A DNA stretch of 50,542 bases from Alphaproteobacteria bacterium (GTDB taxonomy: Bacteria > Pseudomonadota > Alphaproteobacteria > MPNO01 > VGEU01), in contig VGEU01000013.1 in the NCBI GenBank assembly GCA_016869145.1, positions 1 to 50,542 of the forward strand. Reading direction: 5' to 3'. The notes beneath the pieces were generated by a model that saw nothing but the letters and a program-made list of their open reading frames with translations, did no database searches and was not told where the DNA came from. Shown here piece after piece: positions 1 to 1,621 of this stretch (positions are counted from its first letter, which is position 1; every line of letters begins with the position of its first letter). A program made the position numbers and the translations under genes.

Positions 1-14
1 TCCAGGTCAGTCAT
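1..14 (-). CDS. Third precursor peptide of the array, start only (partial)
   Basis: The ATG lies at complement 12-14, preceded by the same AGGAGG and 127-bp upstream block as the two complete copies. Only the first four codons (MTDL) are in the window; the gene continues off the left edge. By analogy with its neighbours it should encode the same leader followed by another core. Confidence 0.55.
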
Positions 15-107
15 GCAAAGCCTCCTGTCGGTTGTCGTCAGAGCCGGCGCAGGGCCGCACAGCCCGCCGCAGGAGACGGGGGCAGAACTGAACGGCACCG
101 CCTCGAC

Positions 108-275
108 TCAGCGGTCAGCTACTGGTTGGGCAGCAGCAGGCGCACCAGCAGAAAAATGAGAGACGGCAGGGCCGCACACAAGGCAACTCCCCTCCTCCCG
201 ATCGAGCGCCTCGTCGGAGAGTTCGTCGGTGAAGTCGGCGGTCTCGACGTCCGTCGTCATGTCCAGGTCAGTCAT
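108..275 (-). CDS. RiPP-like precursor peptide B (55 aa)
   Basis: The ATG at 275 is chosen because AGGAGG lies six bases upstream and the first 29 codons equal those of precursor A. The leader is acidic and contains DVETADFTDELSDEALDR followed by EEG, in the style of peptide leaders recognised by RiPP-modifying enzymes. The core begins SCLVCGPAVSHFSAG, with a CxxC pair and several Ser residues, and ends in the shared downstream repeat by reading its third frame (QPVADR then TGA at 108-110). No modifying enzyme or transporter for it is visible. RiPP assignment is inferred from leader/core architecture; I did not recognise a named family. Confidence 0.6.
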   Translation of the reverse strand: MTDLDMTTDVETADFTDELSDEALDREEGSCLVCGPAVSHFSAGAPAAAQPVADR

Positions 276-379
276 GCAAAGCCTCCTGTCGGTTGTCGTC
301 AGAGCCGGCGCAGGGCCGCACAGCCCGCCGCAGGAGACGGGGGCAGAACTGAACGGCACCGCCTCGACTCAGCGGTCAG

Positions 380-550
380 CTACTGGTTAGGCGTATTCAG
401 AAACATAGAGGCGTCGGTGAGATCCCCTCGGCAGGAGTGGGAACAGTAAGAAACAGCCATCATCCCCTCCTCCCGATCGAGCGCCTCGTCGGAGAGTTCG
501 TCGGTGAAGTCGGCGGTCTCGACGTCCGTCGTCATGTCCAGGTCAGTCAT
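380..550 (-). CDS. RiPP-like precursor peptide A (56 aa)
   Basis: The start at 550 has AGGAGG six bases upstream. The leader of 29 residues is identical to that of precursor B at both protein and nucleotide level. The core starts MMAVSYCSHSCRGD and continues with Thr, Ser and Asn residues; it has no similarity to the core of B beyond containing two Cys (here CxxxC). It ends with NQ and TAG at 380-382, using the first frame of the common stop cassette. A 23-bp duplication just upstream places an 8-codon ORF (547-573) that overlaps this start by ATGA, so translation may be coupled. Function as a modified peptide is inferred. Confidence 0.6.
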   Translation of the reverse strand: MTDLDMTTDVETADFTDELSDEALDREEGMMAVSYCSHSCRGDLTDASMFLNTPNQ

Positions 551-590
551 GCAAAGCCTCCTGTCGGAGTCATGCAAAGCCTCCTGTCGG
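545..590 (-). repeat. 23-bp tandem duplication of start/RBS region making an uORF
   Basis: The 23 bases at 568-590 repeat 545-567 exactly, so the ATG and AGGAGG of precursor A are duplicated. The extra ATG (573) opens a reading frame of eight codons, MTPTGGFA, whose TGA (547-549) overlaps the precursor ATG (548-550). The other copies in the array lack this duplication. Confidence 0.85.
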
Positions 591-684
591 TTGTCGTCAG
601 AGCCGGCGCAGGGCCGCACAGCCCGCCGCAGGAGACGGGGGCAGAACTGAACGGCACCGCCTCGACTCAGCGGTCAGCTACTGG

Positions 685-858
685 TTCGCAACGCAAACGC
701 GGTTCGCCGCACCTACAACCACGCAGACCACGTCAAGGATCGAGCCCGCGACCGGCGCCGCGGAAGCCGTCTTCTTCTTCGCCCGGCGGGAAGCCGCGCT
801 CCGCGCCTTCGTCGAGCCGCTGATCCGCGCCCAGTTCGCCTGCATCGTCGTCGCGTAG
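685..858 (+). pseudogene. Possible 3' remnant of an unidentified gene
   Basis: Reading from 685 to TAG at 856-858 gives an open frame whose last 40 codons look truly coding (G/C at third positions, RREAALRAFVEPLIRAQF near the end). It has no credible start, and its 5' side abuts the end of the peptide array at 686. I could not assign a family. It may be the tail of a gene disrupted when the array formed, or chance in GC-rich DNA. Confidence 0.25.
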
Positions 859-872
859 GCCGAGGGCCCGGC

Positions 873-1472
873 TCAGAGTGCGGCGGACTTCGCGACCGGC
901 TCGTCGGTCGCCCATTGGCCGAGGAAGGACGCGGTGCGCGTCGAGGTGTCGACCAGCTTCTCGACCGTCGCGGCGAGGGCGGCGAACTCCTCGGTGTCGA
1001 GCCGGCCCAACAGCGTGTCGTTCATCAGCCGGACGAGCGGCGCGTAGCGGTCGATCAGCACCCTTCCCTCGGCCGAGACCTGGAGACTGACCCGCCGGCG
1101 GTCGCCGTCGTCGCGTCGCTTGGCGATAAGCCCCATCTCGATCAGCCGGCCGGTCTCGACCGTGATGAACGCCGGCGACACGTTGAGGACGCGCGCAATG
1201 GTGTCGGCGCTCACGCCCTCGCCGTCGTCGTGGCGCGCGATCGCCATCAGCACGCTGTATTGCGGACCGCTGACGCCGAACTTGCGCGCGACGATGTTGC
1301 GGCAGGTGTCGAGATGATCGGCGAGTGCGAGGAGGTTGTAGATGAGCCGACGGCAGGTCCGGTCCGATCCGCCAGCGAGGAGATGCGGGCGCGACACCGC
1401 GGGCGGAGCGCGCCACCGGACCGGCTCGCGCACCGCCCGGGGGCCGTCACGATCGCTGTTCCTGTTTCGCAT
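873..1472 (-). CDS. MarR-family transcriptional regulator
   Basis: 199 aa. Winged-helix regulator: after a ~40-residue N-terminal extension comes a dimerisation helix (LIYNLLALADHLDTCRN), the recognition-helix region (SADTIARVLNVSPAFITVET) and the wing DDGDRRRVSLQVSAEG typical of MarR proteins. The N-terminal extension is low in recognisable structure, so a start further in (for example an in-frame GTG near residue 14) is possible. It is divergent from the alcohol dehydrogenase at 1622 with an AT-rich patch between them, so autoregulation and control of that gene by a small aromatic ligand is a reasonable inference, not shown. Confidence 0.88.
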   Translation of the reverse strand: MRNRNSDRDGPRAVREPVRWRAPPAVSRPHLLAGGSDRTCRRLIYNLLALADHLDTCRNIVARKFGVSGPQYSVLMAIARHDDGEGVSADTIARVLNVSPAFITVETGRLIEMGLIAKRRDDGDRRRVSLQVSAEGRVLIDRYAPLVRLMNDTLLGRLDTEEFAALAATVEKLVDTSTRTASFLGQWATDEPVAKSAAL

Positions 1473-1522
1473 GACACCCGCCCGTGGCTGATCCGCTCGC
1501 TGCCATGGTGCACCCCGGACGG

Positions 1523-1544
1523 TGATTAATCTAGTTCAACAATA
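1523..1544. promoter_or_regulatory. AT-rich intergenic patch, putative promoter/operator
   Basis: TGATTAATCTAGTTCAACAA is a conspicuous AT-rich stretch in otherwise very GC-rich DNA, between the divergent marR-type gene and the dehydrogenase. It is the likely place for promoters and for MarR binding, although no perfect palindrome is present. Confidence 0.4.
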
Positions 1545-1621
1545 GCGGCCATCGCCGCGCGCCAGGCGGCGTAGCCTCGACCCGTTCGCCGACCATGCGG
1601 CCAGGAGCGGGAAATCGACCG

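Follow-up and report, generated by a model that had tools for sequence, protein, structure and literature searches.

A conserved three-frame stop element behind the hypervariable cores of tandem RiPP-type precursors

The stretch of DNA analysed here, referred to as the window, spans contig C13 in full (50,542 bases) and is part of a 3.93-Mb assembly of 247 contigs (genome G000). The first 690 bases of the window are occupied by one end of a tandem array of short precursor genes, encoded on the minus strand. Read in the direction of the genes, the array starts with a stop cassette (686-667) and continues with an intergenic spacer (666-551), the leader of precursor A (550-464) and its variable core (463-383). 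A second cassette (388-369) is followed by a spacer (368-276) that carries, as seen by inspection, a ribosome-binding-like AGGAGG ahead of leader B (275-189). Core B (188-122), a third cassette (127-108), another spacer and the start of a third leader (14-1) come last; the contig begins inside this third leader, so that the array is cut by the assembly. Precursor A extends from 550 to 380 and uses the TAG of its cassette (382-380), and precursor B extends from 275 to 108, uses the last TGA (110-108) and thereby acquires a VADR tail encoded by the cassette. The two leaders (MTDLDMTTDVETADFTDELSDEALDREEG) are identical in 87 of 87 nucleotides. The core of A (MMAVSYCSHSCRGDLTDASMFLNTPNQ) and the core of B (SCLVCGPAVSHFSAGAPAAAQP, then VADR) show 30% ungapped identity and share nothing beyond chance. 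They measure 60 and 74 nt when counted from the last shared base, or 67 nt (B) and 81 nt (A) from the ALDREEG codons to the TAG. Around the start codon of precursor A, a short tandem duplication in the spacer (551-597) creates an upstream ATG and a tiny overlapping reading frame. Mis-binning of the contig was ruled out, as the tetranucleotide usage of the window matches that of 20 other G000 contigs (distance 0.086-0.108, compared to 0.069-0.116 among the G000 contigs themselves and 0.27-0.30 relative to the mean for Reyranellales).

All three copies of the cassette read AACCAGTAGCTGACCGCTGA (20 nt), with TAG at nucleotides 7-9, TGA at 11-13 and TGA at 18-20, one stop in each frame. The initial annotation had described this sequence and its three stops exactly as they are present, and its core lengths of 60 and 74 nt as well as the termination of precursor A at the first-frame TAG and of precursor B at the third-frame TGA could be confirmed. 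Its statement that the cassette stands after every variable core applies to both cores of the window, while the third copy (667-686) has no leader before it. The 20-mer occurs three times in the 3.93-Mb assembly, always in the window, and its reversed control does not occur at all. The chance that a random 14-mer closes all three frames lies between 0.00025 (spacer composition) and 0.0008 (equal bases), and only 6 of the 101,058 14-mers on both strands of the window do so. Across 14 genomes, the 14-mer TARCTRACCGCTGA was found at 36 sites in eight of them, compared to one site for the reversed pattern. Together, the 20-mer counts, the distribution of the 36 sites and the closure rate of random 14-mers rule out a chance match as the origin of the cassette. 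A genome-wide repeat of the Chi or REP type was likewise ruled out, since all 36 sites lie on leader-bearing contigs.

Precursor A, searched against 84,980 species genomes, matched at three loci, which are distributed over two MAGs, one titled Enhydrobacter aerosaccus and the other Alphaproteobacteria. With eight aligned leaders as the query, matches were obtained in 7 of the 385 genomes from the class and, in the order to which G407 belongs, in 10 of 76; we take this order to be Reyranellales. Within the window's own order, a single-leader query matched 1 of 27 genomes, namely the window's own, and no second carrier was detected. Many matches in relatives sit at contig ends, as expected, because repeats break assemblies. 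One IMG/VR contig (L168) bears a leader, a core and a cassette. A 16-mer scan of viral contigs returned five contigs with a leader only on L172, which is the same contig as L168; the pattern scans of viral contigs that included a downstream leader and the scan for a 21-mer of one spacer type all gave 0 matches, and no plasmid copies were found. A further IMG/VR contig (L173) carries a run of GCTGACC/GCTGATC-type heptamers that matches the cassette, with the leader absent nearby. The locus L003 (contig C89) was rejected as a relative, the DNA match being due to chance. Large dispersed sets of precursors with Cys-containing cores, an ELSDEALDR-type leader and no stop cassette were observed in G405, G139 and G085 (L046-L063), with 18 matches in G085 and 19 in G405. 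Many of the G085 precursors end in a C-terminal PSD, PAE or PTD, and no YcaO was found in this genome. At L065 (G399:C5), several ORFs lie about 750 bases apart; they are nearly identical, carry FTFDVDGLSDEALD and differ in their tails.

The genes of the array have the composition of RiPP precursors, as short ORFs combine a shared leader with unrelated cores that contain modifiable residues. In 23 cores, 40 Cys codons are in frame with the leader, compared to a shuffle mean of 15 (maximum 27 in 2000), while the two remaining frames hold 7 and 28; at least one Cys is present in 21 of the 23 cores. Such an enrichment is what leader-directed modification of Cys, Ser or Thr would select. The precursors match no Pfam or NCBIfam model. 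In five of the eight cassette-bearing genomes (G422, G423, G435, G469 and G470), a SagD-family, TOMM-type YcaO scoring over the TIGR03604 cut-off is encoded on a leader-bearing contig, and the TOMM leader-binding domain TIGR03882 was present where it was scanned for (L095 in G423, L100 in G470 and L103 in G450). The precursor of G423 is flanked by genes for a cyclic-peptide export ABC transporter, a DUF697 protein and a Band 7 protein, and G450, a relative that lacks the 14-mer, encodes a SagB-type dehydrogenase (L103). The window's genome, which is rated 99.18% complete, yielded 0 matches for TIGR03604 and PF02624, which speaks against a YcaO product there, although the array runs off the contig end and the sequence may have a gap; no YcaO was found in G407 and G408 either. 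By leader homology, we propose that the precursors of the window may feed a YcaO-type (thiazole/oxazole) maturase.

The cassette follows 20 of the 23 distinct cores of the leader loci, and 21 of 24 when L168 is added; the underlying table has 25 rows and 22 cassettes, with the core shared by L095 and L098 listed twice. The cassette is missing after L093, after the final unit of L105 and after the final minus-strand unit of L107, and in none of these three cases does the available sequence show a further leader downstream. Every junction that precedes another leader, in contrast, carries the cassette (11 of 11, counted by inspection). Hence, the element is not universal as had been supposed: it is absent from 3 of 24 distinct cores, and the relatives with the ELSDEALDR leader end differently. 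The length of the core modulo 3 is 0 in four, 1 in eight and 2 in nine of 21 distinct units, for which the identical cores of G435 and G469 (equal to the L095 core) were counted once and L097, cut by a contig end, was excluded. The cores of homologous arrays are thus free in phase, as the initial annotation had anticipated. All three stops of the cassette are in use, TAG or TAA at positions 1-3 in four units, TGA or TAA at 5-7 in seven and TGA at 12-14 in six. The remaining four of the 21 cores end at an earlier stop within the core, shortly before the cassette, which is then not used.

Closure was also measured without use of the cassette regex. All three frames were closed within 14 nt around the used stop in 19 of 24 clade cores, compared to 1 of 40 ELSDEALDR relatives (ORFs no longer than 190 aa whose cores have 3-60 residues, from loci L046-L063 and L102-L104). 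Fisher's test gave a p-value of 9e-11, which overstates the difference as the sequences are related and not independent. Outside the 14-nt limit were 39 of the 40 relative units and five of the 24 clade units, these five being the three cassette-less units and two units with a damaged third stop. An alternative measure, which starts at the used stop and covers the following 20 nt, gave 7 of 24 versus 4 of 40 and misses stops lying upstream.

Stop-preserving changes within complete cassettes were limited to two kinds, G3A (TAG to TAA) in G408 and G6A (TGA to TAA) in G422 and G470, which is too few for a test of selection. Two cassettes have lost the third stop; each is accompanied by another copy at most 35 nt downstream, and the last copy is intact in both cases. 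The three stops are therefore conserved in homologous arrays, where changes lead from stop to stop and damaged copies are backed by intact ones, and it is likely that they are under selection. Between lineages, the identity is 95.5% for the 14-mer, 40% for the rest of the spacer and 79% for the leader, values that derive from 15 modules picked by the cassette regex, so that positions 1-12 are partly imposed and the 95.5% is inflated. Conservation also extends beyond the stops. C4 and C8-C11, which lie between the stops, and the G before the TAG are the same in all 22 unit rows (one core being listed twice). Of the 42 possible single changes of the 14-mer, 18 keep the three stops and 15 of these fall at the five free positions, where none was seen; therefore, something beyond the stops is also kept. 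A design based on stops only, as suggested by the initial annotation, is consequently insufficient as the reason for the conservation.

We consider it probable, at roughly 60%, that the cassette is a phase-free three-frame stop element that closes the swappable cores of tandem RiPP-type precursors, with a YcaO maturase assigned by leader homology. The repeat module would then comprise the stop cassette, the spacer with its ribosome-binding site and the conserved leader up to its end, and the unique cores would lie between modules. As the module opens with stops in all frames, the preceding core would be closed within 14 nt and be extended by no more than four residues (VADR). Cores could be swapped, and could gain or lose any number of bases, without read-through into the spacer and the next leader; it is because each module opens with three-frame stops that they would be freely exchangeable and resizable. 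The exchange itself may proceed by homologous recombination in the conserved flanks, and selection would maintain the stops.

The invariant positions C4, C8-C11 and the preceding G also fit another reading, which we regard as possible, albeit distinctly less probable than the stop element. The 15-mer GTARCTRACCGCTGA could foremost be an RNA or DNA element, for instance one that forms the basal arm of a hairpin between the genes or that binds a protein at its heptamer repeat GCTGACC-GCTGA, with the stops as a by-product. Five of nine folded Reyranellales modules reach a z-score of -4 or lower with the cassette bases paired in the basal stem, and the cassette pairs with a downstream partner in an alignment of 12 modules. 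However, the modules of the window, of G408 and of both G407 arrays fold at most barely better than their shuffles (z -1.8 to +0.7) despite a 14-mer that is the same or one base off. The covariation term in the 12 modules is +0.2, which lends the pairing no support, and the sole pair changed on both sides lies outside the cassette. The rarity of three-frame closure among random 14-mers likewise speaks against stops as a by-product. A known RNA family was rejected, as window positions 1-1600 gave no Rfam match at E-values up to 1.

Alternatively, the cassette might be conserved merely because the arrays spread recently and were homogenised by recombination, without specific selection. Leaders and spacers are indeed nearly identical within one array, and tandem duplications and partial modules are present. 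Between lineages, in contrast, the identity of the spacer adjoining the cassette is down to 40%, compared to the 95.5% given above for the 14-mer, which already weakens this explanation, and the window's genome belongs to a different order from the other carriers. We therefore consider it unlikely.

Identical leaders are combined with unrelated cores not only in precursors A and B of the window but also at L093, L099 and L107, which share the same 87-nt leader in three genomes. The breaks at the leader border are sharp, with leaders of at least 95% identity followed by 0-2 matching bases. Point mutation is a poor account of this change, because the cores appear random whereas the 87 adjoining bases are unchanged. 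Either the cores are exchanged as blocks or gene conversion homogenises the leaders, and both outcomes would follow from homologous recombination in leader and spacer. Instability of the arrays is apparent from a tandem duplication of 36 nt at L094, from cassettes repeated in L107, from partial modules at array ends and from the short duplication at the start codon of precursor A. Another sign of it is found at L091 (933-1005), where a second apparent core, which by inspection reads AVVPTCSCS in the frame of the leader, stands directly after a 13-nt cassette without a leader of its own, the result of either a module deletion or a core insertion. In eight assemblies, no donor copies were found for the 20 cassette-bearing cores of the 23 (L168 not included); the best non-self match of 21 nt is about chance level, and copying of cores from elsewhere in the genome was rejected on this basis. 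Serine resolvase domains adjoin the single precursors L096 (590-1279) and L093 (2482-3081), and the neighbourhoods of L091 and L100 contain an integrase-core domain and an IS630-type domain, respectively; these neighbours are not consistent among arrays.

The abrupt leader border, the second core of L091 and the resolvases at L096 and L093 could be reconciled with a site-specific exchange, in which the cassette and the leader end serve as recombinase recognition sites for the excision and insertion of cores, but we think this very improbable, as resolvases occur at two of the scanned array loci and not at all of them, homologous recombination in the flanks yields the same borders, and the donor search found nothing beyond chance matches of about 20 nt. 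Of the earlier suggestion that the system tolerates core insertion in any phase, the phase freedom stands (4, 8 and 9 of 21 units), while the insertion mechanism that it implies is not supported. Returning to the stop element, it may be speculated, with considerable caution, that an exchangeable core cassette has the 15-mer as its right border and that arrays trade whole cores of any length and phase and by any recombination route, in which case the three-frame stop would be an adaptation that makes blind exchange safe.

In integron gene cassettes, a repeated DNA element stands behind each variable coding piece in an open-ended array. The arrays described here resemble them in both respects and differ in that the leader belongs to the repeat and the core alone varies. 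With TOMM and linear azol(in)e peptides they share short precursors with a conserved leader and Cys-, Ser- or Thr-bearing cores and, in the relatives, the SagD-family YcaO with its leader-binding domain and the cyclic-peptide exporter; the SagB-type dehydrogenase was seen in G450. Unlike these, the arrays have a three-frame stop element at the DNA level and phase-free cores, their precursors match no family model and no YcaO was seen in the window's genome. For the NHLP-Burk family, hypervariable cores and tandem precursors are described (Cox et al. 2015, PMC4603692). Prochlorosins, for which many precursors are served by one promiscuous LanM, are similar in the hypervariability of the precursors and different in the enzyme and in the leader family, which is Nif11; core insertion-deletion events and recombination have been proposed for them (PMC10783134). 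A literature search for the leader motif gave no match, and searches for three-frame stop codons with hypervariable precursors and related terms, largely without full text, returned no description of such an element. We assign the array to a known kind, that of RiPP precursor arrays with hypervariable cores; its phase-free termination element appears to be a variant that we have not found described.

Hypervariable RiPP arrays pose the old question of how cores can change fast and the gene yet stay intact. With a conserved DNA feature that protects the next gene from core changes of whatever size, this question would become testable, and the module would represent a ready design for peptide libraries. 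If the 15-mer is indeed the border of exchangeable cores, the arrays may constitute a natural platform for combinatorial peptide evolution.
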